Positions 28,744 through 61,635 of a DNA stretch of 64,000 bases are shown here, piece after piece; the first letter of the stretch is position 1; each line of letters begins with the position of its first letter. The position numbers and the translations under genes are program-made. Location of the stretch: positions 868,001 through 932,000 of the forward strand of contig JAPWJX010000003.1 in the NCBI GenBank assembly GCA_028283855.1, given 5' to 3'. The DNA comes from Verrucomicrobium sp. (GTDB taxonomy: Bacteria > Verrucomicrobiota > Verrucomicrobiia > Methylacidiphilales > GAS474). A model generated the notes under the pieces. It searched no databases. It worked only from the letters and a program-made list of their open reading frames with translations, and was not told where the DNA came from.

Positions 28744-29328
28744 CTAACGATAGAGCCTGCGGCGGGCAATGTGGGCGGCGACGGCGGGCGGCACCAAGTG
28801 GTTGATGGGCAAATCTTTCTTCACGCGGGCGCGAATCTCTGTGGCCGATATATCGACCGCGCGGGGGCGAGGCAAGGAGATAACGCCGCGCCGCTTCCGC
28901 CGCAGCGGGTGCCCGGGCCGGGAGAAGACGAGGAAGGTGACCAGGCGGCGCAGCTCCTTGGCGCGATGCCAGGCATCCAGGAGGGGGAGCTGGTCGGCCC
29001 CGATGAGGAGGAAAAGCTCGGCGCGCGGCAGGGCGTCGCGGAAGAGTTCCACGGTGTCGATGGTGTAGGACGGCCCCTTGCGGTCGATCTCCGCGCGGGA
29101 GATCCAGAAGTGGGGGTGGTCTTCCAGCGCCTTTTCCAGGAGGGTGAGGCGCTGGGCGGCGGTGGCTTCCGTGGCGCTCTTCTTGTGGGGGGACTGGGCG
29201 CAGGGAATCCAGACGACGGCGTCCAGGGAGGCCTGTTCCAGGGCGTCCTGGGCCTGGATCAGATGGCCTTGGTGGACGGGATCGAAGCTGCCTCCATAGA
29301 GGCCCAGGCGAAATCGGCGGACGGACAT
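28744..29328 (-). CDS. nadD: Nicotinate-nucleotide adenylyltransferase
   Basis: 194 residues. The nucleotidyltransferase opening LGLYGGSFDPVHQGHLIQAQDAL contains the first catalytic histidine pair; SPHKKSATEATAAQRL, GPSYTIDTVELF, LIGADQLPLLDAW and the second active-site motif DISATEIRARVKKDLP follow. The enzyme forms deamido-NAD from nicotinate mononucleotide and ATP. It heads the nadD-rsfS-methyltransferase operon. Confidence 0.95.
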   Translation of the reverse strand: MSVRRFRLGLYGGSFDPVHQGHLIQAQDALEQASLDAVVWIPCAQSPHKKSATEATAAQRLTLLEKALEDHPHFWISRAEIDRKGPSYTIDTVELFRDALPRAELFLLIGADQLPLLDAWHRAKELRRLVTFLVFSRPGHPLRRKRRGVISLPRPRAVDISATEIRARVKKDLPINHLVPPAVAAHIARRRLYR

Positions 29329-29369
29329 GGGGCCTCTTCTACCACGATATGAAAAAAATCGGAAACGCC

Positions 29370-29398
29370 TTGTTCTCCGCGCGGGAATCTTCTACGGT
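29370..29398 (+). promoter_or_regulatory. Promoter of tRNA-Pro(GGG)
   Basis: TTGTTC (29370-29375), a 17-base spacer and TACGGT (29393-29398), 15 bases before the tRNA. Confidence 0.45.
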
Positions 29399-29413
29399 CG
29401 CCTCTCCTAAAAA

Positions 29414-29487
<74 letters not shown>

Positions 29488-29497
29488 TTTTCCTTTT

Positions 29498-30739
29498 TTA
29501 GCCGACCTTTCGGGCGACGGTGCCCGGCGGGTGGGCGTACCAACCGGGGTCGGCGTAGCTTTCCAGGTTTTCCCGCACCTTGAGCAGGGTGAACATCCCT
29601 CCCATCTGGATGGGGCCGAAGGGCCCTTCCCCCGCCATCATCGGCAGGGTGTTGGCGGGGCCGGGCATGCCCATCTCGGCCATTTCGGCCATGCCGTCCT
29701 TTCCCATCGGCATGTAGCCCGGCAGGAGCCGCTGGAGGTTCCGGACCGCCCCCTGGTCGACGCCGATGAGGTTCGGCAGGTCGTGCCGCATGGCGTTCAT
29801 GGTGTGGTGGGCCTTGTGGCAGTGGAAGGCCCAGTCGCCGGGATTGTCGGCGGTGAACTCGACGGTGCGCGTGGTGCCGACGGGGACGCTGACGGAGGTC
29901 TCCGGCCAGCGGGCGCCGGGCGGGATGGGTCCGGCGTCCGTGGCCGTCACCCAATAGTTGTGGCCGTGGATGTGGAGGGGGTGGCTGTCCATGCTCAGGT
30001 TGGCCAGGCGGATGCGGACGCGCTGGCCCTTGCGCACGACCATCGGCGCGGTGCCGGGATAGGCGCGGCTGTTGAGGGTGAAGAGGTTGAAGTCGGTCAT
30101 CACGTTCGGGTTGGGCGTGAAGGTGCCGGGCTCCACGGCCCATTCCATGAGGAAGAAGGCGAAGTCGCGGTCAGCCGGAGGCTCGGGAGAAGCCTGCGGG
30201 TGGACGATGAAGAAGCCCATCATGCCCAGGGCCATCTGGACCATCTCGTCCGAGTGGGGGTGGTACATGAAGGTGCCGTGCTGCCGCAGGGTGAACTCGT
30301 AGGCGTAGGTCTCCCCCGGCGCGATGTGGGGCTGGGTGAGTCCGCCGACGCCGTCCATGCCGTTGGGGACCAGGAGGCCGTGCCAATGGATCGTCGTCGG
30401 CTCCGGCAGGCGGTTGGTGACCAGGATGCGGACGCGGTCGCCCTCCACCGCCTCCAGGGTGGGGCCGGGAGTCCGGCCGTTGTAGCCCCAGCAGTGGGCC
30501 TTCATGCCGGGGGCGAACTCGTGCTCGACCGGCTCGGCGGTCAGGCGGAAGACTTTCACGCCGTCTTCCCAGGTCCAGGGGAGGGAGGTGCCGTTGAGGG
30601 TCTCGACCGGCACGTGGGGCGCGGGTTCCCCGGCCAGCGCGGCGGCGCGGGCGGGGGGCGTCCTTCCCATCCAGGCCAGGGCGCCCGCCGCGCCGGAAAG
30701 GGCGGCGGCGGACAGGAGGTCGCGGCGGGTCATTTTCAT
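29498..30739 (-). CDS. Tat-exported multicopper oxidase (CopA/laccase-like)
   Basis: 413 residues. A twin-arginine signal (MTRRDLLSAAALSG) sends the folded protein to the periplasm. Copper-ligand motifs are present in order: HWHG (118-121), HPH (160-162), HPLHIHGHNY and HCHKAHHTMNAM. The last block has Cys between histidines as in a type 1 copper site. The C-terminal part is Met-rich (MPMGKDGMAEMAEMGMPG), as in copper-handling oxidases. It likely oxidises Cu(I) or phenolic substrates as a detoxification step. It is the last gene of the metal operon and overlaps the efflux lipoprotein gene by four bases. Length is shorter than CopA of Pseudomonas, which has an extra Met-rich region. Confidence 0.9.
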   Translation of the reverse strand: MKMTRRDLLSAAALSGAAGALAWMGRTPPARAAALAGEPAPHVPVETLNGTSLPWTWEDGVKVFRLTAEPVEHEFAPGMKAHCWGYNGRTPGPTLEAVEGDRVRILVTNRLPEPTTIHWHGLLVPNGMDGVGGLTQPHIAPGETYAYEFTLRQHGTFMYHPHSDEMVQMALGMMGFFIVHPQASPEPPADRDFAFFLMEWAVEPGTFTPNPNVMTDFNLFTLNSRAYPGTAPMVVRKGQRVRIRLANLSMDSHPLHIHGHNYWVTATDAGPIPPGARWPETSVSVPVGTTRTVEFTADNPGDWAFHCHKAHHTMNAMRHDLPNLIGVDQGAVRNLQRLLPGYMPMGKDGMAEMAEMGMPGPANTLPMMAGEGPFGPIQMGGMFTLLKVRENLESYADPGWYAHPPGTVARKVG

Positions 30740-32115
30740 GAGCGGGCTTTCGGGGTGGGGTTCAGGCCGCCGCCCACGGCGGCTTGGAGCCGGGCGCGCT
30801 CGATCCAGTAGTCCCGCTCCAGCTCCAGGGCGCGGCGCTCCGTCTCCGCTTCGGCCCGCCGGGCTTCCAGGAGGTCGTAGGGGCTCTTCAGCATGTAGTT
30901 GTACTGGGCCTGGGAGAGGCGGAGGATTTTTTCCCGCTGGGGCAGGAGGGTGCGGCGGTAGGTTTCGGCCAGCCGCCGCTTGGCCCGCATCGCCGTCCAG
31001 GCCTCCCGTACGGCGGAGGCGGCGTCGACGCGGAGGCGCTCGCGCCGGTCTTCCGCCTGGCGCAGGAGCGCCTCCAGCCGCGCCACGGAGGCCTGGCCCT
31101 GGTCGAAGAGGGGGAGCTGGAGTTCCAGGGTCGGGCCGGTGACGCGGGAGCCGTCCGGGTTGCGCTCCGAGTCGACGCCGACGTTGACGCCCGCGGGCAA
31201 GAGGGCGGTCCCTTTCTTGAGGGAGAGGGCCTTTTCCAGGAGGGCGACGCGGAGGCCTGCCGCTTCCAGGTCGAGCCGCTCGCGCAGGGCCCGCGCTTCC
31301 AGCGCCGTCACGGGAGGATCGGTGGGGGGCAAGGGCGGCAGGGTTTCGGCCATCGTCCAGCCGGTGCGCTCCGGCTCCAGGCCCATGAGGCGGTTGAGGG
31401 CTTCCCGGTCCCGCGCGGCGTCGATCTCCGCCTCGGCCGTCTCGGCGGCGGCCTGCTGGCCGGCGGCGGCGCGCAGGGCGGCGTCCAGCTCGCTGAGCGT
31501 CCCGGCCTTTTCCTGCGCGGCGGCCAGGTCGCCCGCGGCTTCCAGCGTTTCGGCGGCCAGGCGGACGCGCCGGAGCTGCTGGAGGCGGGCCTGGTAGCGG
31601 GCGCTGGCGGCCCGGACGTCGGCGGCGAGCTGGAGGGCCTCGTGGCCGACGCGGGCCTTGGTCTCCGCCAATTCCAGGGACGCCATGCGCTTCTGCAGGG
31701 GCTTCATGAGGAGGTCGAGGAAGTCCTGCGTAACGGCCAGCTCGATATCTCCCGCCAGGGGGGGACGGTCGGGGAAGCGGGCGCTGGCGAAGAAGACGGG
31801 ATTTCTGAGGAGGCCCGCCTGGACGAGGTCGGCCTGGGAGACGCCGATCTCCTCGAAAGCGGCGCGCAGCCCCGGATTGTGCAGGAGGGCGACTTCCACC
31901 GCCGCGTCGGCGGTCAGGGGGCCCGCCAGGAGGCGGGAGAAGGCGGCGTCGGCCCGGCGGTCGTCCGGGCCGCCCTGCTCCCAGGCGATGGGCCGGTCCA
32001 GGCGGGCGGAAACGTCGGCCTCCACCGCGCGGCGGGCGGGAGCGGGATCGACGGAGGCGCAGCCGGCCAGAAGGAAGGCCAGCGCCGCCCCCGCAAGGAG
32101 GGGCATCGCGCGCAT
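30736..32115 (-). CDS. Outer-membrane efflux lipoprotein (TolC/CusC family)
   Basis: 459 residues. A lipoprotein signal with lipobox LLAGC precedes two long alpha-helical repeats typical of outer membrane factors (VEVALLHNPGLRAAFEEIGVSQADLVQAGLLRNP; second copy near EARALRERLDLEAAG). The trimer forms an outer-membrane channel. No pump or adaptor gene lies beside it: neighbours are the Cys-rich protein and the multicopper oxidase. Similar lone TolC-like proteins occur in copper-resistance clusters. It may work with a distant RND pump or have a separate periplasmic copper function. It overlaps the oxidase gene by four bases. Confidence 0.85.
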   Translation of the reverse strand: MRAMPLLAGAALAFLLAGCASVDPAPARRAVEADVSARLDRPIAWEQGGPDDRRADAAFSRLLAGPLTADAAVEVALLHNPGLRAAFEEIGVSQADLVQAGLLRNPVFFASARFPDRPPLAGDIELAVTQDFLDLLMKPLQKRMASLELAETKARVGHEALQLAADVRAASARYQARLQQLRRVRLAAETLEAAGDLAAAQEKAGTLSELDAALRAAAGQQAAAETAEAEIDAARDREALNRLMGLEPERTGWTMAETLPPLPPTDPPVTALEARALRERLDLEAAGLRVALLEKALSLKKGTALLPAGVNVGVDSERNPDGSRVTGPTLELQLPLFDQGQASVARLEALLRQAEDRRERLRVDAASAVREAWTAMRAKRRLAETYRRTLLPQREKILRLSQAQYNYMLKSPYDLLEARRAEAETERRALELERDYWIERARLQAAVGGGLNPTPKARS

Positions 32116-32134
32116 GGCGGCGGGAGTGCCGGAG

Positions 32135-32566
32135 TTAGTGGGCGCCGGGGCAGCAGCCGTTGTCCCGGACGCAGCAGGCGGCGGCGGAGACGCAGCACGG
32201 GGCGCGCCCGCCGATGGCCCACGGCGTGGGATGGGGCGTCGCGGCGGCGGCCTGGGCGGCGGCTTCCCGGTCGATCTTTTCCAGCGCGGGCTTCGGGTCG
32301 GCCTTGAACTGGGAGACGCAGCCCTTGCAGCAGAAGCGGACCAGGCGGGCGGTCTCTTTTCCCTTGGCGTCGGTCGTCTTGTAGAGGTAGTCGACGGGTG
32401 TGCCCATCTGCCCGCCGAGCTTTTCCCCGGAAATGGGGCAGGTGGTCAGGGGGTAGGTTTTCTTGAGCGCGTCGATCTGTTCCTGGTCGGTCGGCGCGGC
32501 ATGGGCGGCGGCGAGGGTGAGGAAGGCGCAGAGGCTGCACCAGGCGAGGGTTTTGAGGCGGGTCAT
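32135..32566 (-). CDS. Secreted cysteine-rich metal-binding protein, TRASH-like core with a CC-x5-CC-x5-CC tail
   Basis: 143 residues with a signal peptide (MTRLKTLAWCSLCAFLTLAAAHA). The core TTCPISGEKLGG (C43) and VRFCCKGCVSQFKADP (C79, C80, C83) resembles the TRASH/YHS-type pattern used by copper-binding proteins. After an Ala-rich helix comes a tail with C124-C125, C131-C132, C138-C139 and a terminal His, a strictly periodic CC-x5-CC-x5-CC arrangement. This suggests binding of a soft metal such as Cu(I) in the periplasm. It sits between a TonB-dependent receptor and the efflux lipoprotein in one operon. I know no named family with this tail; the function is inferred. Confidence 0.78.
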   Translation of the reverse strand: MTRLKTLAWCSLCAFLTLAAAHAAPTDQEQIDALKKTYPLTTCPISGEKLGGQMGTPVDYLYKTTDAKGKETARLVRFCCKGCVSQFKADPKPALEKIDREAAAQAAAATPHPTPWAIGGRAPCCVSAAACCVRDNGCCPGAH

Positions 32567-32639
32567 CGTTTTGGGCGGGCGGGGGGTTGCGCCCGTCCAT
32601 GAGGGTAAACGAAATCCCCTCCCCGCGCCCCTCTTCTTT

Positions 32640-34814
32640 TTAGAAAGAGTAGGTGACCCCGGCGTAGAAGGTGCGCCGCGCGCCGTATTCGGCGTTGAAG
32701 ACGCCCACGCCGCTGTCTCCCCGCAGGTAGTAGACCTGGTCGAAGAGGTTCACGATGTCGAAGCGGGCCTTGAGGTTCTTGCAGCCCAGGAAGCCGAAGG
32801 TCTGGGTGAAGCCGATGTTGACGTTGTCGTAGGCGGGGATGCTGTCCCCGTTGGGGATGGTGGAGCCGTCCGCGTAGACGCGGTCGGCGCGCAGGCCGCT
32901 GCCGCAGACGATCTCGACGTAGGGGCGCGTTTCGTTGATGAGGTAGGAGGCGCCGACGGAGCCGGTGAAGGTCTGGTTGTGGTCCAGGTAGATGGAGTTG
33001 GCGTTGATGTAGTTGTAGTCGTCCGCGCTGAAGAGGAGGGATTGGGCGGAGTTGACCCCGGTGCCGCGCGCCTGTTCCACCGCCAGGTTGGCGAAGGCGG
33101 AGAAGCCCTTCTGCTCGTAGGTCTGGCTCAGTTCCACGCCGGTGATTTCCGCGCGGCGGTAGTTGAACTGGGTGAGGATGGGGGCGGCGCCGAACTGGCC
33201 GTCGTCCAGCTGGTTCTGGGCGATCTTGTAGTAGGCGTCGAGGCCGACCTGGTATTCCTTCGTGAAGCGGTGGGTGACGCCGATGTCGAAGTAGTGGTCC
33301 CGCTCCGCCTTGACGGGGTCGTTCGGCAGGCCGTCGGTGGCGGCGTTGTCCGTCCCGGCGAAGAGGGCGGAGGCGGACGGCGGGGCGTTTTCCAGGGAGG
33401 GCGGGGTGAAGTAGCTGGCGTAGCCGGCGTGGAAGGCGGTGTCCGTGTCCAGCTGGTAGGTGCCGTTTATGCGGGGGCTGATCTGGTTCTGGTGGATTTC
33501 CCCGTTTTGGTAGAGGTCGAAGCGGCCGCCGTAGTTGAGGGTCAGCTCCTTGGTGATGCGCCATTCGTCCTGCAGGTAGAAGCCGTACATGTAGGCCGCC
33601 TCGTAGTCGCCCGCGGGGACGCCGAAGGCGCCGCCGGTGGCCGCCCCGGAGCCGTCGACGGGGAAGACGTAGGTGGTGCTGCTCTGCTGCGCTCCCTGGG
33701 CGTCGAGCATCAGGCCGCTGCGCAGGGTGTGGTCGTCCGCCACCTGCCAGCTGCCGTCGAACTGGAGGCCCTGGGACATGAGGCTGCGGTCCTGGCTGCC
33801 GGAGACGCCGTTGACGTAGAGGTTCCCGGTGGTGTCCGGGCGGTAGAAGATGTTGCTGTAGCGGTTGAAGAGGGCCAGCTGGTAGTCAAAGTCCCCGTCC
33901 GTTTTCTGGTAGGCGACGACTTCGTAGTTGTTCTGCTCGTCCTGGGTGTTCTGCAGGCGGGAGGAGTCGACGAAGGCGGGGAGCCCGGGGAAGGGGTTTC
34001 CCGCGCCGTCGGTCGCCGCGGCCTGCCCGGCGGCGCTGGGGATCTGGTAGTGGTTGTAGGATTCCCCGGCCAGGAAGCTGAGGCGGCTGGTCGAGTCGAT
34101 GAGGTAGGAGGCGTAGAGGAAGCCGCGGTATTGGTCGGTGTCGTCGTGGGGGTTGCTGGTGCCGTTGGAGGGGTTTTCGATGCCCATGGTGTTCTGCAGG
34201 TAGCTGCCGGAGACGTAGTAGTCCCATTTTCCCTGCGTGCCGCCGTATTCGAAGCTGGGGCGGGTTGTTTCATGGCTGCCGCCGTACATTTCCACGTCGC
34301 CGCCGGGGTCGAAGGCGCCGCTCTTCGTGTGGATGTCGATGATGCCGGTGGTGCGGAAGCCGTATTGGGCGGGGAGGGAGCCGGTGATGAGGTCGACGCG
34401 GTCGGCGAAGCGGGTGTCGAACTCCGAGCCGAAGCCGGTGATTCCCTCCGGGATGAGGACGTCGTTGATTCGGTATTGGACGTTGCCGTGCTCGTCGCGG
34501 ACGTGGAGCCCGCCGTCGGAGGAGGTGTCCTGCGTCACGCCGGGGAAGCGCAGGAGGAGCTGGTTTAGGGAGACGTTGTCCCCGCGGGACTGGTTCTGGA
34601 TCTGGTCCTGGGTGACGGTGTAGACCGTGGCCCCGGTGTTGGGGACGATCCGCTGCCGGGCCTCGTCCAGCGTGCCGACGACGGTGACCGTCTCCAGCTG
34701 CGGCGCGTTCGTGGGGCTTCCGGCCGCGGCGGCGTCGGCCGGGGCCGCTTCCTGCGCGGCGCGCAGGGCGGGGACCAGGAGGAGGAGGGTGAGAATCGCG
34801 CAAATCGCTTGCAT
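32640..34814 (-). CDS. TonB-dependent outer-membrane receptor heading the metal operon
   Basis: 724 residues from ATG 34814 (a GTG directly before it is also possible). A signal peptide is followed by a TonB box-like ETVTVVG, a plug domain (NQLLLRFPGVTQDTSSDGG, VQYRINDVLIPEG, DRVDLITGSLPAQYG) and a beta-barrel ending in AGVTYSF. Such receptors import scarce metals, metal chelates or other ligands with energy from TonB/ExbBD, a set of which is encoded at 60-61.6 kb. The neighbours (Cys-rich protein, efflux lipoprotein, multicopper oxidase, CnrYXH-like regulators) point to a metal ligand such as copper, nickel or cobalt. The protein itself has no His-rich loops that would settle it. Confidence 0.88.
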   Translation of the reverse strand: MQAICAILTLLLLVPALRAAQEAAPADAAAAGSPTNAPQLETVTVVGTLDEARQRIVPNTGATVYTVTQDQIQNQSRGDNVSLNQLLLRFPGVTQDTSSDGGLHVRDEHGNVQYRINDVLIPEGITGFGSEFDTRFADRVDLITGSLPAQYGFRTTGIIDIHTKSGAFDPGGDVEMYGGSHETTRPSFEYGGTQGKWDYYVSGSYLQNTMGIENPSNGTSNPHDDTDQYRGFLYASYLIDSTSRLSFLAGESYNHYQIPSAAGQAAATDGAGNPFPGLPAFVDSSRLQNTQDEQNNYEVVAYQKTDGDFDYQLALFNRYSNIFYRPDTTGNLYVNGVSGSQDRSLMSQGLQFDGSWQVADDHTLRSGLMLDAQGAQQSSTTYVFPVDGSGAATGGAFGVPAGDYEAAYMYGFYLQDEWRITKELTLNYGGRFDLYQNGEIHQNQISPRINGTYQLDTDTAFHAGYASYFTPPSLENAPPSASALFAGTDNAATDGLPNDPVKAERDHYFDIGVTHRFTKEYQVGLDAYYKIAQNQLDDGQFGAAPILTQFNYRRAEITGVELSQTYEQKGFSAFANLAVEQARGTGVNSAQSLLFSADDYNYINANSIYLDHNQTFTGSVGASYLINETRPYVEIVCGSGLRADRVYADGSTIPNGDSIPAYDNVNIGFTQTFGFLGCKNLKARFDIVNLFDQVYYLRGDSGVGVFNAEYGARRTFYAGVTYSF

Positions 34815-34840
34815 CACGCAGGGTTGGCCACATACAACTT

Positions 34841-34870
34841 ATTTGCAAACAAATATGCAAATGATTTGCG
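34841..34870. promoter_or_regulatory. AT-rich palindromes between the receptor and the sigma-factor operon (candidate Fur-family site)
   Basis: GCAAATGATTTGC (34857-34869) is a perfect 6-1-6 inverted repeat. It overlaps a second perfect repeat, ATTTGCA-N8-TGCAAAT (34841-34862). Both stand out in an otherwise GC-rich sequence and lie where the receptor's promoter must be. The 6/7-1-6/7 form is that of Fur/Zur-type operators; which regulator binds is unknown. Confidence 0.45.
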
Positions 34871-34937
34871 GATTTGTGTGAAAATGAAATGAGGGCTGGG
34901 CTCTTTCTATTCCGTTTATTCCTTTAGAATGCCCTTC

Positions 34938-35210
34938 ATGGATCCTGCACAACTCGATTCCCTCCTGCGGGAGCTGGCGGAAGAATCCGCGCCCGTTCCG
35001 GCCTCTCTTTCCCCCGCCGTCTGGCGGGCCATCCGGCTCCGGCGGGGGGAGGAGGGATGGCTTTCTCTCCTGCGTCCCCGCTTGGCGGCGCTGGCGCTCC
35101 TGGGCGCGGCGGCGTTGGGCGTTCTCACCGCTCTGCCCGTTTCCGGGCCGGACGAGGCGCTGCGGGTTTTTCGGGGGGACGTTTCCGGCTGGATGGGAGG
35201 GGTGCGATGA
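34938..35210 (+). CDS. CnrY-like membrane anti-sigma factor
   Basis: 90 residues from ATG 34938; an ATG at 34929 is in frame and neither has a clear ribosome site. The N-terminal part (MDPAQLDSLLRELAEESAPV...LSPAVWRAIRLRRG) is a short helical cytoplasmic stretch suited to hold a sigma factor, followed by one membrane helix (LAALALLGAAALGVLTALPV) and a short periplasmic tail. Length and topology match CnrY of Cupriavidus (95 residues). It overlaps the CnrX-like gene by four bases. Sequence identity to CnrY is low by eye, so the call depends on position, topology and neighbours. Confidence 0.72.
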   Translation: MDPAQLDSLLRELAEESAPVPASLSPAVWRAIRLRRGEEGWLSLLRPRLAALALLGAAALGVLTALPVSGPDEALRVFRGDVSGWMGGVR

Positions 35211-35647
35211 ATGGGAAGGTTTTCGGGCGCATCGCCCTGCTGCTGGTTTTGGTGGCCCTGGTGGCGGCGGGCAGCGCGTGGCTGACCGGGCGCTGCCAGA
35301 GGGAGGCGGCTTCTGATTCCCACGCCGCCCTGCACCGGCGGCTTCACGTGACCCCGGAGCAGGAGAGGCGGCTGGAGCCGGTGGAGTCCCGCTTTGCCGT
35401 CCAACGGGAAAGCGGCGCGGCGGCCATCGCGGCGGCCAACCGGGAACTGGCCCGCGCGCTGTTGGAGGACCGGGGGGATTCCCCGCGCGTCCGCGCGGCG
35501 GTGGGGAAGATCCACGCCGCCATGGGCGACCTGCAACAGGCGACCTTGGACCACCTCTTCGCCATGAAGGGGGTGCTGACGCCGGAGCAGTATGACGCGC
35601 TGCTCCGGCTGACGGCCTCCGGCCTTTCTTCCTGTTGCGCCCCGTGA
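35207..35647 (+). CDS. CnrX-like periplasmic heavy-metal sensor
   Basis: 146 residues: one N-terminal membrane anchor (IALLLVLVALVAAGSAWL), then a helical periplasmic domain of the Metal_resist/CnrX type. Candidate metal ligands are H39-x3-H43, E60, and H116-x3-M120. Cupriavidus CnrX binds Ni/Co through H42, H46, E63, H119 and M123, so all five are kept with the same spacing, shifted by three. A C-terminal Cys-Cys pair (SSCCAP) is extra. In the known system metal binding to CnrX changes CnrY and frees CnrH. The gene is coupled to both neighbours by four-base overlaps. Ni/Co specificity is an inference; related proteins sense other metals. Confidence 0.82.
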   Translation: MNGKVFGRIALLLVLVALVAAGSAWLTGRCQREAASDSHAALHRRLHVTPEQERRLEPVESRFAVQRESGAAAIAAANRELARALLEDRGDSPRVRAAVGKIHAAMGDLQQATLDHLFAMKGVLTPEQYDALLRLTASGLSSCCAP

Positions 35648-36171
35648 GCGGCGATCCGGACCTGCCCCTGGTCCAGGCCCTCCAGGCGGGCCGGGACGAG
35701 GCGCTCGACCTCCTCATGGAGCGGCACCAGGAGGCGGTCTTCCGCTTCATCCGCCGCTCCGTTTGGAACGAGGCCGACGCGCGGGAGCTGGCGCAGGAAA
35801 CCTTTGTCCGGGCCTACTTCCACATCGGCCGCTTCCGGCCGCGCGCGCCGTTTCTTTCCTGGCTCTTCCGCATCGCGGCGAACCTGTGCCGGGACCGCGC
35901 CCGCAGCAAGGCCTACCGCCAGGCGCGGCGGACCGAAGCCCTGCCGGAAGGCCGGGAGGTGCCCGCCCGCATGGAGGAGGAAAAGCCGGAGCTGGAAGCC
36001 CTCCGCGCGGCGATCGCCGCCCTGCCCGCCGGGCTGCGGGAGCCGCTGGTCCTCACCGCTCTGGAGGGGCTTTCCCAGGAGGAGGCGGGCCGCCGCCTGG
36101 GCCTGAGCGCGCGGGCGGTGGAGAACCGGGCGCGCCGGGCCCGCGCGCGGCTGCTGCGGAGGCTGGGCTGA
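35644..36171 (+). CDS. ECF sigma factor, CnrH-like
   Basis: 175 residues from GTG 35644, overlapping the sensor stop; a TTG at 35635 is an alternative. Region 2 (VWNEADARELAQETFVRAYFHIGRF, FLSWLFRIAANLCRD) and region 4 (IAALPAGLREPLVLTALEGLSQEEAG, ARAVENRARRARARLLRRLG) are both complete, with a charged linker between. It directs RNA polymerase to a small metal-response regulon when released from the membrane anti-sigma factor. The likely targets are its own operon and the divergent receptor operon. CnrH is the best comparison because of the Y-X-H gene order. Confidence 0.88.
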   Translation: MSGDPDLPLVQALQAGRDEALDLLMERHQEAVFRFIRRSVWNEADARELAQETFVRAYFHIGRFRPRAPFLSWLFRIAANLCRDRARSKAYRQARRTEALPEGREVPARMEEEKPELEALRAAIAALPAGLREPLVLTALEGLSQEEAGRRLGLSARAVENRARRARARLLRRLG

Positions 36172-36212
36172 TTTTGCTTGGCCCGTCCGCCCGCCGGAGC
36201 AAGGGTGGAAGG

Positions 36213-36695
36213 ATGACTCCCCTGGGCCGCCGCTTTCTGGTGCTGGGCATCGTCGCCGCCCTGATCGGGACCGGCGTGTGGGGGATGCCCCGGCTGGTGG
36301 AGCGGATGGGGCACGTCCGCTACCGGGAGATGGGCGGGGAGGTGGCCCGGATCCGCGCCGCCCTGGCGGAGGGGCGCGTGCCCTATCCGGCCCGCAGCGG
36401 CCTTCAGACGACGCAGGCGTACCTGGAGCTGCTCATCCGCGCGGGCGTCCTGGCGCCGGGGGACCGGCTCTTCTTCAAGAACTGGCTGGTGGCCAACCTC
36501 GACCCCTCCGATCCTCCGGGCACGGTCTTCCTGGCCACCAAGAGCTGGTACGCCTACACGGCGCTGGGGAAGAAGGACGCGCGGGGCTTCGCCTTCGTCT
36601 GGCTGGACGGGGCGGAGTTGCGCTCCTACGAGCCGCCCGCGCCGGGGCGCGCGCCGCTGCCGCCGCGCAGGCCGGAGCTGCTGCCCTTCGACTAG
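36213..36695 (+). CDS. Membrane-anchored protein of unknown function, pseudopilin-like layout
   Basis: 160 residues from ATG 36213, preceded by GGAAGG. One N-terminal hydrophobic segment (FLVLGIVAALIGTGVWG) is followed by a helix (GEVARIRAALAEG) and a soluble domain with FFKNWLVANLDPSDPPGTVFLATKSWYAYTALG. The layout (short basic start, one membrane helix, extended helix, small globular domain) resembles type II secretion pseudopilins. The GFxxxE prepilin cleavage motif is missing, so it is not called one. It follows the sigma-factor gene by 41 bases and may be co-transcribed. Function is unknown. Confidence 0.68.
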   Translation: MTPLGRRFLVLGIVAALIGTGVWGMPRLVERMGHVRYREMGGEVARIRAALAEGRVPYPARSGLQTTQAYLELLIRAGVLAPGDRLFFKNWLVANLDPSDPPGTVFLATKSWYAYTALGKKDARGFAFVWLDGAELRSYEPPAPGRAPLPPRRPELLPFD

Positions 36696-36701
36696 CCGGT
36701 T

Positions 36702-37541
36702 CTAGCGCTTGGCGTCCCGCTTGATCAGTTCCAGCCGGGCGCGCTCCAGCACCAGCCGCTCTTCCCGCGTCAGGCTTTGGATGCCGTGCCGGGAAATCTT
36801 TTCCAAGATCGGGTCGATCGACTGGTGGCGGCGGTCTTCCAGGAGCTTTTGTTCCGCCTGCTTTTTTTGCTGCGCGGCGAAGGCGCGGCGGTCGCGGCGC
36901 AGGCGGAACCATTCCAGGATTTCGCTGACGAAGGGGACCTTGATGGCGAAGGCCGCCGCGCCGACGCCCGCGGAGAGGGCGGCCAGGTCGACCCAGCGGT
37001 GGTCGGCCACGTCGATGAGGGCGATGAGGGAGAAGGTGATGAGGGCGACCCACTTTGCCGCCAGGCCGAAGAAGACGGGCCCGTTCGGGAAAAGCAGGGC
37101 GTAGGAGATGAAGAGGGCGAAGTGGACGTTGTAGGAGCCCGCGTAGTAGATCGGCTGACGCAGCGCCAGGGAGGCGCCCAGGAGGAGCAGAGCAGGGAAG
37201 AAGACCAGGCCCCCGTAGAGGAAGGCGAAGGCGCGGCGGCCCACCGCCCGCTCCACCTCCCGGCCGAACCAGAAGAGCATCAGCATCTCGATGGCGAAGC
37301 CAAGGCTCAGGGGGTTGATGAAGGGGTAGGTGAGGGTTTGCCAGACCTGGCCGCGGCCCAGGACGGCGGGGGTGGAGAGGGGCAGGTAGGTGACGAGCCA
37401 TCCTTCCGTGTGGGCGCTGCGGCAGAGGGCCAGCGCCACCCACATGGCGACGTAAAGAAAGAGGAGGGATTCCGTGACGCGGACGGGATGTCCCTGTACC
37501 CGGAAGAGCGGGTCGTCGTCGGAAGGAGCCCAGACCGCCAT
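36702..37541 (-). CDS. Rhomboid-like membrane protein, catalytic serine apparently missing
   Basis: 279 residues from ATG 37541. About six membrane helices are present with rhomboid landmarks: GQVWQTLTYPFINP, MLFWFGREVERAVGRRAFAFLYG and ISYALLFPNGP. In active rhomboids the segment before the last of these reads GxSG; here the matching stretch is YYAGSYNVHF, where alignment puts Tyr at the Ser position. It is therefore probably a pseudoprotease. A long charged cytoplasmic tail follows (FRLRRDRRAFAAQQKKQAEQ ... LTREERLVLERARLEL). It is convergent with the preceding unknown gene and separated by 6 bases. Role unknown. Confidence 0.75.
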   Translation of the reverse strand: MAVWAPSDDDPLFRVQGHPVRVTESLLFLYVAMWVALALCRSAHTEGWLVTYLPLSTPAVLGRGQVWQTLTYPFINPLSLGFAIEMLMLFWFGREVERAVGRRAFAFLYGGLVFFPALLLLGASLALRQPIYYAGSYNVHFALFISYALLFPNGPVFFGLAAKWVALITFSLIALIDVADHRWVDLAALSAGVGAAAFAIKVPFVSEILEWFRLRRDRRAFAAQQKKQAEQKLLEDRRHQSIDPILEKISRHGIQSLTREERLVLERARLELIKRDAKR

Positions 37542-54995: not shown

Positions 54996-55742
54996 TCAGT
55001 GGGCGACGAGGTTCTCGTGATACCCGGCGGAGTCTTTTTTCCAATAGGCGGCGATGCGCGCCGAAGCCGGCGGAAGGCCCCTCTCCTCCAGGAAGAGGTG
55101 CCGCGCCGCGAGCATGGCGGAGGCCTCGCCCGCGCACCAGACGAAGCCCTCCCCCGGGAGGGAGGCGGGAATGGAGCGCAGCGTGGAGAGGAACTCCTCC
55201 GTTGAAAAAGTCCATTGGACGATCTGTCCGGCCTTGGGAGCGAAGGCGCGCTGGTCGCGGGGATCGTCCAGCTGCACGACCGCGTAGGTCAGGACGCCCG
55301 GGGGCAGCTCCTCCAGGCGCCGGCTGATGGCGGGCAGGGCGCTGCAATCCCCGGCCAGTACGTGCCACTCGTAATCGGCGGGAATGATGAGGGAGCCTTT
55401 GGGGCCCGCGATGACGGCGGCCTGGCCGGGCTGCGCCTGGCGCGCCCATGACGAGGAGAGGCCGCCCCCGTGCAGGCCGAATTCCAGGGTCAGCTCCCGC
55501 GAGGCCGGATCGAAGCGGCGCGGCGTGTAATCGCGGCGGACGGTCTGGCCGGAGGCGTCCTGGAACATGAATTTCACGTGGTCGTCGAAGGAGGGGGAGG
55601 CGAAGCCGGAAAGGGATTCGCCGGTGAAGGTGACGGCGCGGAAGCGGGGGCTGACGGCCTCGACCCGGGCGACCTGGACTTCCCGGGCGACAATGTCGTG
55701 GGCGACGCGGCGGGGCTGGCGGGCGGGAGAATTTCCTTTCAT
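54996..55742 (-). CDS. Siderophore-interacting protein (SIP/ViuB-type ferric-siderophore reductase)
   Basis: 248 residues from ATG 55742; an ATG at 55754 would add four residues. The FAD-binding domain has SPSFDDHVKFMF and the RRDYTPRRFD flavin motif, and the C-terminal SIP domain has HVLAGDCSALPAISRRLEELP and FVWCAGEASAMLAARHLFLEE. Such proteins reduce Fe(III)-siderophores in the cytoplasm with NAD(P)H and release iron. It is divergent from a MarR regulator with only about 31 bases between preferred starts. The TonB system and receptor at 57.7-61.6 kb would deliver its substrate. Confidence 0.9.
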   Translation of the reverse strand: MKGNSPARQPRRVAHDIVAREVQVARVEAVSPRFRAVTFTGESLSGFASPSFDDHVKFMFQDASGQTVRRDYTPRRFDPASRELTLEFGLHGGGLSSSWARQAQPGQAAVIAGPKGSLIIPADYEWHVLAGDCSALPAISRRLEELPPGVLTYAVVQLDDPRDQRAFAPKAGQIVQWTFSTEEFLSTLRSIPASLPGEGFVWCAGEASAMLAARHLFLEERGLPPASARIAAYWKKDSAGYHENLVAH

Positions 55743-55765
55743 TGGGGAGGGCATAATGTTGACAA

Positions 55766-55780
55766 TATCCACTATGGATA
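55766..55780. promoter_or_regulatory. Candidate MarR operator between the SIP and MarR genes
   Basis: TATCCA-CTA-TGGATA is a perfect 6-bp inverted repeat whose centre includes the preferred MarR start codon (ATG 55774). It is flanked by near-identical direct repeats TAATGTTGACAAT (55754) and TAATGTTGATAAT (55785). The AT-rich block is unusual in this sequence and spans both gene starts, as expected for an autoregulated divergent pair. Confidence 0.55.
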
Positions 55781-56256
55781 GCATTAATGTTGATAATGTC
55801 AAAGAAACTGCCGGCGCCGAGGCGGTGGAGGTCTTTGAATTGATCCACTCCCTGATGCATCTTTTCCGCGCCGAGCAGTACCGCGCCCTGCGCGGCGGGC
55901 CGCACGACCTGAGCCATATGGAGGGCAAGGTGCTGGGTTTCTTTGCCGAAAGGCCCGGAGCCATGCTGCGGGACGCCGTCCTCTGGTCCGGGCGGGATAA
56001 GGGGCAGCTGGCCCGCATCATCCGCACCCTGAAGGGGCAGGGGCTCCTGGCGGAGCAGGCCGATCCGAGCGACCGCCGCAGCGTGCGCCTGCGGGCGACG
56101 CCGGAGGGGCGGGCCATCCATCTTTCCCTGCGGCGCAGGCTGAAGCGGCTTTCCGAGGCGGCCGTCTCGGGCCTGGGCGCGAAGGAGCGCCGGGAGGTCG
56201 CGCGCCTCCTTGGAAAAATCAAGGGCGGCCTTTTGGAGCTCGGCGCAGCCGCATGA
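55774..56256 (+). CDS. MarR family transcriptional regulator
   Basis: 160 residues from ATG 55774 (ATG 55756 is an in-frame alternative, one base from the possible SIP start). Winged-helix features: LMHLFRAEQYRALRGGPHDLSHMEGKVLGFFAERPGAML, the recognition helix region SGRDKGQLARIIRTLKGQGLL and the wing EQADPSDRRSVRLRATPEG, the usual MarR 'DxRxxxxxLT' motif. It probably represses the divergent SIP gene and its own operon, released by a small ligand. The next gene (SDR enzyme) overlaps it by four bases. Confidence 0.9.
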   Translation: MDSINVDNVKETAGAEAVEVFELIHSLMHLFRAEQYRALRGGPHDLSHMEGKVLGFFAERPGAMLRDAVLWSGRDKGQLARIIRTLKGQGLLAEQADPSDRRSVRLRATPEGRAIHLSLRRRLKRLSEAAVSGLGAKERREVARLLGKIKGGLLELGAAA

Positions 56257-57146
56257 AAACCGTGTTCGTCACCGGCATCTCCGGCTACATCGGGGGCACC
56301 GTCGCGATCAAGCTGCGGGAGGCGGGACACCGGGTCCTGGGGCTGGTGCGGAAGGAGGAGGACGAAACCCGGCTGCGCGCCGCGGGCATGATCCCGGTGC
56401 GGGGGGATCTCCAGGCCGCGGAGGCGATCGGCGGGGCCATCGGGCAGTCCGATGCGGTGGTCCACACGGCGGACTCCGACGCTCCGGCCGTCACCGAAAT
56501 GTTTCTTTCCTTTCTAAGGGGAACCGGGAAGGCCTTCATCCACACGTCCGGCTCCGCCATCGTGGCCAATTGGGCCGACCGGCGGGCGGGGGAGTTCGTC
56601 TTCACGGAGGATTACCCTTTTGAAAGCCGGTCCCCGTTCGAGAATCGCGCGGCCATCCATGCGGCCATCCTCCGTGCGGCGGTGGACGGCGTGCGGAGCG
56701 TTGTCATGGTTCCCGGCATGGTCTACGGGACCGGCCTTTTTATCGCCAAGGAGAGCAAGCAGATTCCCTTTCTGATCCGGTCGGCCCGCAAGATGGGGAA
56801 GGCTTCCTATATCGGGGACGGCGCCCATCGCTGGAGCCATGTCCACGTGGAGGACTTGGCGGACCTGTATCTCGCCGCGCTGCGGGAGGCCAAGCCCGGG
56901 TCCGTTTTCTTCGCGGAAAACGGGAGTTCCTCCTTCTTGGAAATCGCCCGGGCGATCCACCGGGAGCTGGGCCTGGCGGGCGCGCCCGCCTCGCTCACGC
57001 CGGCCGAGGCGAAGGCCGAATGGGGGGAGCTCATGGCGACGGTGGCCCTGGGATCGGACTGCCGCATCAGCGCGGACAAGGCGCGCCTCTTCCTTGGCTG
57101 GAAGCCCCATCGCGGCCCGCTGGAAAACCACCTCGCGCTCTCTTGA
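56253..57146 (+). CDS. NAD(P)-dependent epimerase/dehydratase-like SDR protein
   Basis: 297 residues. The Rossmann motif VFVTGISGYIGGTVAIKLREAGHRV gives an extended-SDR N-terminus; DAVVHTADSDAP and FIHTSGSAIVANW follow. VPGMVYGTGLFIAKESKQIPFLIRSARKMGKASYIGDGAHRWSHVHVEDLADLY resembles the family's substrate-binding region. The YxxxK catalytic pair is not clear: the corresponding stretch reads SPFENRAAIHAAIL, so the reaction is uncertain. Related proteins often sit beside MarR/TetR regulators. It overlaps the MarR gene by ATGA and probably shares its message. Confidence 0.82.
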   Translation: MKTVFVTGISGYIGGTVAIKLREAGHRVLGLVRKEEDETRLRAAGMIPVRGDLQAAEAIGGAIGQSDAVVHTADSDAPAVTEMFLSFLRGTGKAFIHTSGSAIVANWADRRAGEFVFTEDYPFESRSPFENRAAIHAAILRAAVDGVRSVVMVPGMVYGTGLFIAKESKQIPFLIRSARKMGKASYIGDGAHRWSHVHVEDLADLYLAALREAKPGSVFFAENGSSSFLEIARAIHRELGLAGAPASLTPAEAKAEWGELMATVALGSDCRISADKARLFLGWKPHRGPLENHLALS

Positions 57147-57157
57147 GGGGGATCAAA

Positions 57158-57592
57158 GTGCTTGCCCTTTTTTCGGGAAGGGGGGAATACTCCCGCGCCG
57201 TGCTGCGCCGTTTCGGATTCACTTTCGCCTTCCTCGCGCTTTTCGTGCTGGCGGGCGGCCATTGGGCCGTCCTTCAGTCGGTCGCGTGGGCGCGCATGGT
57301 GGTCGAATACTCGCATGAAGGCGGCCTGGAGCGCGGCGTGGCCCAGACTTTTGACGGCGCGCACCTCTGCCCCCTCTGCATGAAAGTGCAGCAGGCGAAG
57401 AAGGCGGAGGAGAAAGCCCCCGCCGACTTCGCCGACGCCAAGAAGAAGGCCGACTCCTTTCCCCTGAGCCTGGACGGGGTTTCCCCCGCCGTGCCGGGAA
57501 CGGCGTTCGCCTGGCCGCGTGGCGCGGCCGTTGCGGCGGCGGTCCGGGCGAACCGGCCTCCGGTTCCGCCTCCTTTATCCCTTTTCTCCTAA
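57158..57592 (+). CDS. Small membrane-anchored protein with an HxCPLC motif, unknown function
   Basis: 144 residues from GTG 57158, preceded by an AGGGGG ribosome site 8 bases upstream. A membrane segment or uncleaved signal (FGFTFAFLALFVLAGGHWAVLQ) is followed by ARMVVEYSHEGG, TFDGAHLCPLCMKVQQAKK (C71-x2-C74), a Lys-rich helix and a Pro-rich end. The motif looks like a site for a soft metal. It precedes a TonB-dependent receptor gene in the same direction (116 bases), which suggests a part in metal or chelate uptake. I recognise the pattern only loosely from unnamed proteins near receptor genes. Confidence 0.7.
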   Translation: MLALFSGRGEYSRAVLRRFGFTFAFLALFVLAGGHWAVLQSVAWARMVVEYSHEGGLERGVAQTFDGAHLCPLCMKVQQAKKAEEKAPADFADAKKKADSFPLSLDGVSPAVPGTAFAWPRGAAVAAAVRANRPPVPPPLSLFS

Positions 57593-57708
57593 GCGGCGCG
57601 TTTTCGCGCGCCCGCCGATCCCCCTAAGCCGGAGCCCGCCTTGAGGCGGCGTTTCGGAATATTCCCCCCAACCCGGACCGCGCCTTGCAGTGGCGCGGGG
57701 AGAAAGAA

Positions 57709-60045
57709 ATGAATTGGAACCGATTTTGCAGAGCCCTGGGAGCGTCGCTCCTGCTGGGCGCCTGCGTGATGAGCGCGCGGGGCGCCGATGCCCCGGAGCC
57801 CGCGCAGACGGAAACGAACGCGGGCACGACCCTTTCCGAGGTGACCGTCAACGCGAGCGCCCCGGCCGATCCGGGCGTCCCGCCCGTGAAGGAAAGGTAC
57901 GACCTGCCCCAGACGACCGCCAGCATCGCCAGCGACGTCATGGAGGAGCGGATCAACGTCGTCGACACGGAGGACGCGGTCAAATACATGCCCAGCCTCT
58001 TCGTGCGGAAGCGCAACTTCGGCGACACGCAGCCGACGCTGGCCACCCGCACCTGGGGGGTCAACTCGAGCGCCCGCAGCCTGGTCTACGGGGACGACGT
58101 GCTGCTCTCCGCCCTGGTGGCGAACAACAACACCATGGGCGCGCCCCGGTGGGGAATGGTCTCCCCGGACCAGATCGAGCGCGTCGACTTTCTCTACGGC
58201 CCCTTCGCGGCGCAGTATCCGGGCAATTCGATGGGCGGCGTCCTCCTCATCACCACGAAGATGCCGGATAAGCCGACCCTGGACATGAGCCAGACGGAGG
58301 CCTTCCAGGACTTCAGCCTCTACGGGACGAAGGGAACCTACCAGACCGACCAGAGCAACGTCGTCTTCGGCGACAAGAACGGCCCGGTCTCCTGGCTCGT
58401 CTCGGAGAATTTCCAGAACAGCTACAGCCAGCCGCTCACCTTCATCACCTCCGCGACGATTCCGGCGGGGACGACGGGCGCCTACGCCGCCCAGAACAAG
58501 CTGGGCGCCGCCGCCAATGTCCTGGGCGCGGGAGGCCTGCTCCACACCCAGATGAACGACATCAGCGGCAAGGCGCAGTGGGACGTCTCCCCGGAGGTGA
58601 AGGCGACCTACCAGATCGACTTTTGGAACAACGACGCCCAGTCGACCGCGCAGAGCTACCTGCACACCGCCGCCGGAACGCCCACCTTCGGCGGGGCCAG
58701 CGGGTTTGCCGGGAGCAACTACACGCTGGACCAGAGCCACCTGGCCAACTCGATCTCCCTCAAGACCGACACGAAGGACACGTTCGACTGGGAGGTCGTG
58801 GCCTCCAACTACTACTACCTGGAGGACATCCAGCGGAATCCCTTCGGCGTGACGGGCGGAAGCTTCACCCCCTACGGCACCATCACCCGCATGGACGGCA
58901 CGGAGTGGAGCAACGGGGATGTGAAGGGGATCTACCGCCCCGACTTCTTCGACGGGACGCACGAGGTGAGCTTCGGCGTCCACGCCGACCAATACAGCCT
59001 GGACAACCCCGTCTACGGCACGTCTTCCTGGAACACCGGCTCGGATTCCGGCAACGCCCTCTACACCTCCAGCGAGGGCTCCACCATGACCCAGGCCCTT
59101 TGGGCCCAGGACGCCTGGAGTTTCGCGCCGAAGCTGAAGCTGACCTACGGCGGCCGCCTGGAATTCTGGGAGGCCTCCAACGGGTACAACTTCTCCAGCC
59201 GGCAGAACACGCTGGGCGTGGTCACCAGCTCCACGGCGCAGAACCAGCCGGGCATCGAGGACGTCCGCTTCTCCCCGAAAGTCTCCCTGGACTGGACGCC
59301 GTCGGACGAGTGGGAGCTGACCAGTTCCTTTGGCCAGGGCTACCGCTTTCCCACGGTGACGGAGCTCTACCAGATCGTCTCCACCGGCACGACCTTTGCG
59401 ACGCCTAATCCAAACCTGAAGCCGGAGAACGTGCTGAGCGAGGAAGTCTCCCTGCAGCGCAAGTTCAAGGACGGGAGCGTCCGCCTCTCCTTCTTCAACG
59501 AGAACGTCTTCGACGCGCTCATTTCCCAGACCGGGTATCTTCCCGGCGCGGGCCAGACGCCCTACACCTACACCTCCAACGTCGATTCGATCCGCAACAC
59601 CGGTGTGGAGCTGGCGGTGCAGAAGGACAACGTGGTGAAGGGGGTCGACGTCTTCGGAAGCGTCACCTACGTCGACTCAGAGATCCTCAGTGATCCCTCT
59701 TTCGCCAGCTCGACGGGTACCACCGCCGCGGGCAAGCGCGTCCCCTACGTCCCCGATTGGCGGGCCACGGTGGGCGTCACCTACCATCCGGTGAAGCGGC
59801 TGGCCCTCACCTCCGCCCTGCGGTACAGCGGCAGGCAGTACTCGACCCTGGACAACACGGACAACACGGAAAACGTCTTCGGCGCCTTCGACAGCTTCTT
59901 CGTCGTCGACGTGCGGGCGGAGTACAAGATCACCGACCAGCTTTCCGCCGCGTTCGGGATCGACAACCTGAACAATGACAAATACTACCTCTACCATCCC
60001 TTCCCGCAGCGGACCTACTCCGCCCAGGTGAAGCTCGCCTTCTAA
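57709..60045 (+). CDS. TonB-dependent outer-membrane receptor (siderophore/metal uptake)
   Basis: 778 residues from ATG 57709 with GGGGAG upstream. Signal peptide (ALGASLLLGACVMSARG), TonB box-like LSEVTVNA, plug domain (TASIASDVMEERINVVDTEDAVKYMPSLFVRKR, RSLVYGDDVLLS, IERVDFLYGPFAAQYPGNSMGG) and a beta-barrel ending AQVKLAF. The barrel has FSPKVSLDWTPSDEWELTSSFGQGYRFPTVTELYQ and PNLKPENVLSEE, typical of siderophore-class receptors. It is followed within 22 bases by exbB, exbD and tonB, which must energise it. The nearby SIP reductase argues for a ferric chelate as substrate. Identity of the chelate is unknown. Confidence 0.92.
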   Translation: MNWNRFCRALGASLLLGACVMSARGADAPEPAQTETNAGTTLSEVTVNASAPADPGVPPVKERYDLPQTTASIASDVMEERINVVDTEDAVKYMPSLFVRKRNFGDTQPTLATRTWGVNSSARSLVYGDDVLLSALVANNNTMGAPRWGMVSPDQIERVDFLYGPFAAQYPGNSMGGVLLITTKMPDKPTLDMSQTEAFQDFSLYGTKGTYQTDQSNVVFGDKNGPVSWLVSENFQNSYSQPLTFITSATIPAGTTGAYAAQNKLGAAANVLGAGGLLHTQMNDISGKAQWDVSPEVKATYQIDFWNNDAQSTAQSYLHTAAGTPTFGGASGFAGSNYTLDQSHLANSISLKTDTKDTFDWEVVASNYYYLEDIQRNPFGVTGGSFTPYGTITRMDGTEWSNGDVKGIYRPDFFDGTHEVSFGVHADQYSLDNPVYGTSSWNTGSDSGNALYTSSEGSTMTQALWAQDAWSFAPKLKLTYGGRLEFWEASNGYNFSSRQNTLGVVTSSTAQNQPGIEDVRFSPKVSLDWTPSDEWELTSSFGQGYRFPTVTELYQIVSTGTTFATPNPNLKPENVLSEEVSLQRKFKDGSVRLSFFNENVFDALISQTGYLPGAGQTPYTYTSNVDSIRNTGVELAVQKDNVVKGVDVFGSVTYVDSEILSDPSFASSTGTTAAGKRVPYVPDWRATVGVTYHPVKRLALTSALRYSGRQYSTLDNTDNTENVFGAFDSFFVVDVRAEYKITDQLSAAFGIDNLNNDKYYLYHPFPQRTYSAQVKLAF

Positions 60046-60066
60046 AAACCCCCAGAAACAAAACCG

Positions 60067-60672: not shown

Positions 60673-60675
60673 CCC

Positions 60676-61622: not shown

Positions 61623-61635
61623 GCCCCTTTTTCCT

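Follow-up and report, generated by a model that had tools for sequence, protein, structure and literature searches.

Evidence for two neighboring metal circuits in one verrucomicrobial locus: a copper-type cassette with a CnrYXH-like module and a TonB-dependent receptor behind a candidate Fur-family operator

Does a locus in which a TonB-dependent receptor, a Cys-rich protein, an efflux lipoprotein and a multicopper oxidase stand together with an extracytoplasmic function (ECF) sigma module encode one metal system or more than one? We addressed this question in Verrucomicrobium sp. (assembly GCA_028283855.1), using a stretch of 64,000 nucleotides (nt), here called the window (G000:C3:868001-932000), from a genome of 2.56 Mb in nine contigs. 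The original prediction was that the four genes may form a single system that takes up a metal or metal chelate at shortage and oxidizes or buffers it in the periplasm, under two regulators of opposite logic. We searched 59 other genomes (the relatives) and a phylum-wide set of 387 genomes. On this comparison, we consider it likely that two independent circuits lie side by side in the locus: a copper-stress cassette and a receptor that belongs to a shortage regulon.

Organization of the locus

Open reading frames (ORFs) and family searches reproduced the predicted gene positions, strands, borders and gap (32567-32639), and both the metal-related gene set and its mixture of import-type with detoxification-type genes are real. 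The minus strand carries, in order of position, a two-domain multicopper oxidase, a TolC-type lipoprotein, a Cys-rich protein and, after a gap of 73 nt, the receptor; the oxidase and TolC-type genes overlap by 4 nt. The plus strand carries a small protein of 90 to 93 amino acids (aa), a CnrX-like sensor and an ECF sigma factor. The two groups are transcribed divergently, and the receptor gene is the minus-strand member nearest the regulator genes. The features are as follows.

29498-30739, minus: two-domain multicopper oxidase with a twin-arginine-type N terminus, 413 aa (PF07732, 1.1e-41; PF07731, 1.4e-30)
30736-32115, minus: TolC-family outer-membrane efflux lipoprotein, 459 aa (PF02321, 3.7e-25; lipobox LAGC by eye)
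32135-32566, minus: exported Cys-rich metal-binding-type protein (TRASH/YHS-like), 143 aa (weak Pfam signals)
32606-32634, minus: ECF-promoter-like motif AGAGGG-N17-CGTTTA upstream of the Cys-rich/TolC/oxidase operon (motif match)
32640-34817, minus: TonB-dependent receptor, 725 aa, GTG start, with ATG at 34814 possible (PF00593, 2.6e-24; PF07715, 5.1e-05)
34799-34813: third palindrome copy, weak (3 mismatches), overlapping the receptor gene start; could be chance
34833-34847: Fur-family-type 7-1-7 palindrome, 2 mismatches
34856-34870: Fur-family-type 7-1-7 palindrome TGCAAATgATTTGCG, 1 mismatch
34890-34918, plus: ECF-promoter-like motif TGAGGG-N17-CGTTTA upstream of the regulator genes (motif match)
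34938 or 34929 (ATG) to 35210, plus: candidate CnrY-type small anti-sigma, 90 to 93 aa (one apparent membrane segment by eye)
35207-35647, plus: CnrX-type periplasmic metal sensor (Metal_resist), 146 aa (PF13801, 2.4e-13)
about 35644-36171, plus: CnrH-type ECF sigma factor, 175 aa (PF04542, PF08281)

The receptor family and the copper-type genes occur apart

We compared the neighborhoods of each gene family. Nine receptor loci at 40% identity or more were found in the relatives, and by tblastn none of them contained a homologue of the oxidase, TolC, Cys-rich or CnrX protein. The same was true of all 80 named receptor loci, which were obtained with an alignment query (a single-protein query found none) and many of which end early at contig ends. 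Conversely, no window-type receptor was detected in the five other oxidase loci (contig C8 of the same genome and the relatives G002, G015, G032 and G028; tblastn E 1e-6) or in the 20 best Cys-rich loci outside this genome and G002, which were searched with the cassette proteins (tblastn E 1e-5). Within these samples, homologues of the receptor family were never beside oxidase, TolC or Cys-rich genes, the very outcome that the original prediction had named as speaking against it; a single importing and oxidizing system of the four genes is not supported. As described below, the promoter and operator motifs of the two parts differ as well. We firmly place the receptor in a separate regulon.

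Some receptor homologues had metal-related neighbors. A ZnuA homologue was near the receptor in four of the nine relative loci (G015, G045, G048 and G003:C15; in the last, the receptor is in fragments and a FUR-family gene is also near). Among the 80 named loci we counted ZnuA in 7, ZnuB in 4, ExbB in 19, TonB in 13 and DUF2946 in 10. Eighteen plasmid records contained receptor homologues, of which six were examined. In Paraburkholderia the receptor had a Zur-type (Fur-family) regulator, ZigA and znuABC as neighbors; in Methylocystis these were a repressor and a metal-binding protein, and in Polymorphobacter a repressor and NikR. The remaining three had no such neighbors. The Paraburkholderia and Methylocystis regulators scored best to the Zur model, below its cut-off.

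A copper-type operon paired with a CnrYXH-type module

The oxidase translation contains the Cu-ligand motifs HWHG, YHPH, HPLHIHG and HCHKAHHTM. The protein scored below the cut-offs of the three-domain CopA/PcoA and CueO families (TIGR01480, 179.3 of 478.95; NF008205, 108.9 of 525). With two cupredoxin domains and an adjacent TolC gene, it has the characters of the two-domain "copper oxidase" of TolC-oxidase operons. The Cys-rich protein gave a YHS signal in Pfam (E 0.056) and its paralogue on contig C8 a TRASH signal (E 0.0016); the family conserves TCP..G..L and CC..C and is present in 104 of the 387 genomes of the phylum. The window Cys-rich protein and sensor carry extra C-terminal cysteines (CCVSAAACCVRDNGCC; SSCCAP) that the copies at C8:27.4 kb and C8:23.4 kb do not have.

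Contig C8 harbors a second cassette, with an oxidase 70% identical and a TolC protein 48% identical to those of the window, a Cys-rich homologue, a DUF2231 protein, its own Y-X-sigma genes and a copper-type P-type ATPase (TIGR01511, 587.8 bits; cut-off, 397); the receptor was not found in it. This contig (44.6 kb) is rich in metal genes, including two resistance-nodulation-division (RND) pumps, the copper ATPase and MerR-like and ArsR-like regulators (by reading), and it has two sigma/sensor/anti-sigma modules whose sensor types differ.

Oxidase homologues of at least 60% identity were present in 4 of the 59 relatives. A TolC homologue adjoined the oxidase in all five other loci of this genome and the relatives, and Cys-rich, CnrX and P-type ATPase homologues were found in two of them (C8 and G002). 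Similar copper cassettes without the receptor occur in G002 and G076; in the latter, sigma and sensor genes diverge from the Cys-rich, DUF2231, TolC and oxidase genes, with a small gene in the middle. Sigma and sensor homologues were present in 11 of the 20 Cys-rich loci, always (11/11) on the strand opposite the Cys-rich gene. These 20 loci also contained RND pumps (13), P-type ATPase matches (14, several of them merely short metal-binding-domain matches), oxidase (4) and TolC (2). The window shares this divergent layout, with the receptor gene in the middle. Among plasmids, 4192 records had an oxidase match, and a TolC family gene lay directly upstream of the oxidase in all seven loci examined.

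The sensor aligned to the CnrX structure 3zg1 (E 1.9e-13). Its residues H39, H43, E60, H116 and M120 match H42, H46, E63, H119 and M123, which we take to be the CnrX metal ligands; by reading, all five are retained in the C8 paralogue and in one G002 homologue. The best solved structure for the sigma factor, among 22 solved sequences, was CnrH (4cxf, E 3.6e-20). The small protein had no family match in profile searches; it is conserved with its paralogues (43% identical to the C8 counterpart) and occupies the position expected of an anti-sigma factor. No gene for a nickel/cobalt RND pump (CnrCBA) was found within 28.7 to 37.9 kb. Together, the Cys-rich protein, the TolC-type lipoprotein and the oxidase are best read as a putative copper-detoxification operon paired with a CnrYXH-type module.

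Two ECF-promoter-like motifs flank the receptor gene

From the regions upstream of Cys-rich and Y genes in the window, C8 and G002, we derived the motif WGAGGG-N16/17-CGTTT. All five matches in the genome fell at the two copper loci, compared with two for a reversed-pattern control; four of these five sites had served in deriving the motif. Sites outside the derivation set were C8:24750, a second G002 site (L052), a site 20 bp upstream of the TolC match in G032 and a site preceding the Cys-rich gene of G076; the Cys-rich genes of C8 and G002 likewise have the motif upstream. A shortened form, GAGGG-N16/17-CGTTT, had three matches in the window versus 0.52 expected. The third (32546-32571, plus strand) was rejected as a promoter because it spans the Cys-rich gene start on the opposite strand. 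No sigma-70 promoters were found in 29300-36800.

The two motif copies of the window flank the receptor gene and its candidate operator and are 2.26 kb apart, while the corresponding divergent pair is 26 bp apart in G002 and 90 bp apart on C8. The divergent promoter region of the copper cassette thus appears to hold the receptor gene here, which suggests an insertion. Around the gene we saw matches of merely 7 to 9 nt, which were rejected as an insertion scar, and long-repeat searches of 29300-36200 returned imperfect GC-rich matches alone. Since no scar was found and the receptor gene is host-like in composition, the case for an insertion comes from the comparison of loci.

A Fur-family-type palindrome marks the receptor promoter

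The intergenic region 34818-34937 and the receptor gene start contain two good copies and one weak copy of TGCAAATnATTTGCA, the kind of palindrome bound by Fur-family repressors and hence a candidate operator. In the window, three matches were found at up to 3 mismatches versus 0.59 expected, and none of 100 shuffles reached three. In the whole genome, at up to 2 mismatches of the R-ended form, clusters occurred only at the receptor promoter and at C5:189691-189728; three single sites lay elsewhere.

At up to 1 mismatch, the palindrome was present in 6 of 8 promoters of this genome and the relatives (0.01 expected from shuffles), or in 5 of 7 without the window: those of the window receptor, C5, G002, G015 and, twice, G051, but not those of G045 or G003:C5. 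Nine genomes together had nine such sites, five before receptor genes, one before the C5 operon and three unexplained (two in G028, one in G051:C84); at up to 2 mismatches there were 71 sites, with 13 for the control. Besides the receptor and C5 sites, we examined ten hand-picked ones. One is a znuABC promoter, and by reading the other nine have no clear metal gene directly downstream. The znuABC site, with 2 mismatches, lies 46 bp before znuA in G032, which has no receptor match; in G015, the palindrome is in the receptor/znuA intergenic region. In these two relatives the candidate operator is shared with znuABC. A literature pattern search for the palindrome returned generic iron papers alone.

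Immediately next to the one-mismatch palindromes G051:C84:2506 and G028:C183:45101, no metal gene could be recognized; the second of them has a Dps-like gene (by reading) at a distance of about 2.3 kb.

Behind the two palindromes on contig C5 sits an operon (about 189.6 to 198.5 kb; L049 7640-15001, L064 1-5533) that encodes a small 91-aa ORF, two ATP-binding cassette exporters, a diaminopimelate-decarboxylase-like enzyme, an SbnA-like enzyme with a rhodanese domain, two methyltransferase-like proteins and one protein outside recognized families. We infer from this content that the operon is metallophore-like. It was rejected as a conserved partner of the receptor in relatives, as the 59 genomes gave paralogue-level matches alone and no orthologue. 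Two Streptomyces megaplasmids have the decarboxylase and SbnA-like pair (34 to 39% identity) but none of the other genes tested.

Other features of the window

At 54996-62331 the window contains a siderophore-interacting flavoprotein, a MarR-type regulator, ExbB, ExbD, TonB, a PepSY protein and a second TonB-dependent receptor (57769-60045), which scored best to heme/transferrin-type models. This is an iron- or heme-type uptake cluster, and the palindrome was not found there. At 3-7745, a repetitive, passenger-like open frame of 2580 aa runs off the window edge.

Which metal, and one circuit or two?

The AlphaFold model of the receptor (mean predicted local distance difference test score, 82.4) has a generic receptor fold, and a fold search with it gave generic TonB-receptor neighbors and no hint of the ligand. 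The receptor fell below the cut-off of the siderophore receptor family TIGR01783 (58.5 of 223.5 bits). A profile search of solved structures gave 13 matches at E<=0.001, including CirA, PirA, PhuR, PfeA and the YncD/PqqU type; none of the 13 was named as a copper or zinc receptor (ZnuD and OprC structures are in the PDB). Because the palindrome is common to znuABC in a relative and some homologues sit with znuABC, Zur or ZigA, and none was found beside the oxidase, the receptor probably serves zinc uptake.

Several observations weigh against two separate circuits for copper and zinc. The only FUR-family protein found in the genome scored similarly to PerR (43.4 bits), Fur (42.6) and Zur (40.6); the znuABC/COG0523 promoter of this genome has no palindrome at up to 3 mismatches; the receptor neighbor in G002 is iron-exporter-like (MbfA-like; NF045676, 445.6 bits, just under the cut-off of 450); and ZnuA was within reach in merely 7 of the 80 named loci, in 3 of them at 26 to 28% identity, most loci having none of the tested neighbors. 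These four points leave our assignment of zinc at moderate confidence, and the separate regulon firm. In a wider scan of named receptor loci (32 verrucomicrobial and 23 others of the 80), the palindrome at up to 2 mismatches was not found in 30 of 32 and 23 of 23 promoters, respectively, which makes it a feature of the closest clade only; one locus, L111, is, judged by its length, the same contig as G051:C16 and hence not independent. On the copper side, the ligand set of the sensor is that of a nickel/cobalt sensor, and a response to copper is suggested by the genes that it apparently governs. The 73-nt gap contains no terminator-like site, the receptor gene is host-like in base composition (GC content at third codon positions, 0.945) and has no insertion scar, and in one of the seven plasmid copper-oxidase loci, that of Burkholderia stagnalis, copD is followed by a TonB-dependent receptor. 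This receptor is of another family (24% identity over 195 aa, E 0.04, to the window receptor).

The palindrome could instead be a Fur box of an iron (siderophore) regulon, with the receptor importing a ferric chelate and the copper genes as unrelated neighbors. The FUR-family protein not classed as Zur, the MbfA-like neighbor in G002, the Dps-like gene about 2.3 kb from one unexplained G028 palindrome, the SbnA-like enzyme in the C5 operon (as in a siderophore pathway) and the mostly iron or heme receptors among the nearest solved structures are in line with iron. Structural likeness, however, does not reveal the ligand. In G032, znuABC has the palindrome upstream, and in G015 it lies between receptor and znuA genes; by reading, none of the ten further sites directly precedes a recognizable iron gene; and the palindrome is missing at 54996-62331, where another receptor is accompanied by ExbB-ExbD-TonB and a siderophore-interacting protein. 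We therefore regard an iron regulon as unlikely.

The two circuits might also be cross-wired: zinc shortage would open the receptor promoter, and read-through would raise copper defense, protecting the cell from copper that enters with a broad-range metallophore, the supposed product of the C5 operon. Gene order, strand and the gap without a terminator-like site allow such read-through, and with a sigma-type promoter of its own, the Cys-rich operon would then have two inputs. We give this arrangement, known from the sequence of one genome, little credence. The same strand and short gap, together with the B. stagnalis locus, are also what favors the single system of the original prediction, in which the oxidase and Cys-rich protein process an imported metal or chelate in the periplasm; as the genes were not together in any of the 9, 80, 5 and 20 loci and their promoter and operator motifs are separate and recur separately, we find it highly improbable. 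Least credible is a copper importer, OprC-like in function, that balances import against detoxification: its location fits, but no copper or zinc receptor so named was among the solved-structure matches at E<=0.001, and where a metal neighbor was seen, the homologues sit with zinc and not copper genes.

Proposed model

In the two-circuit arrangement that we favor, the membrane-anchored CnrX-like sensor and the CnrY-like anti-sigma candidate would hold the ECF sigma factor. Periplasmic copper, the presumed metal, would bind the sensor and free the sigma factor, which would transcribe its own operon and, starting at a further promoter inside the 73-nt gap, the Cys-rich, TolC and oxidase genes. 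The Cys-rich binder, TolC-type channel and oxidase would then bind, oxidize and help remove copper. The receptor alone would be under a Fur-family repressor, probably Zur, on the TGCAAATnATTTGCA palindromes and would be released at scarcity, presumably of zinc. Its cargo is probably zinc, free or chelated, and the C5 metallophore-like operon may supply the chelator. The receptor gene and its operator would be flanked by the copper cassette's two divergent sigma promoters. Of the predicted regulators of opposite logic, what survives is a plausible pair of inputs, the ECF sigma/sensor for excess and the Fur-family-type operator for shortage, and not their joint control of one system.

To our knowledge, zinc uptake in this group has been little studied, and the locus supplies a candidate Zur box, zinc receptor and metallophore-like operon for it. 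For a verrucomicrobial CnrYXH-type module tied to copper genes, it also offers a small sigma regulon and an ECF promoter motif that can be tested. If the receptor were co-transcribed with copper defense, a starvation circuit and a toxicity circuit would here be wired together in compact form.

Comparison with known systems

The module resembles CnrYXH of Cupriavidus metallidurans (nickel/cobalt) in the gene order anti-sigma, sensor, sigma, in its sensor and sigma factor, which are closest to CnrX and CnrH, and in having two candidate promoters; in the passages of PMC9045368 cited here, cnr has one promoter before Y and one before the resistance genes. Unlike CnrYXH, the window module seems to govern copper-type genes and not a CnrCBA pump, and its anti-sigma candidate has no family match. 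A copper-responsive ECF sigma factor with a CnrY-like anti-sigma has been described in Acinetobacter (SigAb-AabA-AabB; PMC12153292), and the window module would be alike in this; the direct targets differ, and the cited parts of that report mention no CnrX-type sensor.

The TolC-copper oxidase operons on plasmids of Burkholderia, Caballeronia, Massilia, Rhizobium, Microvirga and Ideonella likewise have TolC immediately before the oxidase, which is 61 to 64% identical to ours (7 of 7). They differ in encoding a copper-binding protein, CopC, CopD, DUF411 and a two-component regulator (3 of 7), where the window has the Cys-rich protein and the ECF sigma module instead.

As in Zur regulons (ZnuK/L/M of Caulobacter, ZnuD, pseudopaline), the receptor gene follows a candidate operator of the shortage type, which is shared in relatives with znuABC and in this genome with a metallophore-like operon. 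The cited portions of PMC6103462, PMC7029138 and PMC4176598 describe 7-1-7 Zur boxes as well as metallophores under Zur control. The window box differs from the Caulobacter sites given in those portions of PMC4176598, the receptor is outside the named zinc-receptor families, and Zur control here is a candidate from sequence.

None of the titles and abstracts searched described the combination, which argues only weakly for its absence from the literature. Precedents for CnrYXH modules, for TolC-copper oxidase operons and for receptors under Zur control are all found in the cited sections (PMC9045368, PMC12153292, PMC6103462, PMC7029138, PMC4176598, PMC10563805). The arrangement is new, and its parts are of known kinds.

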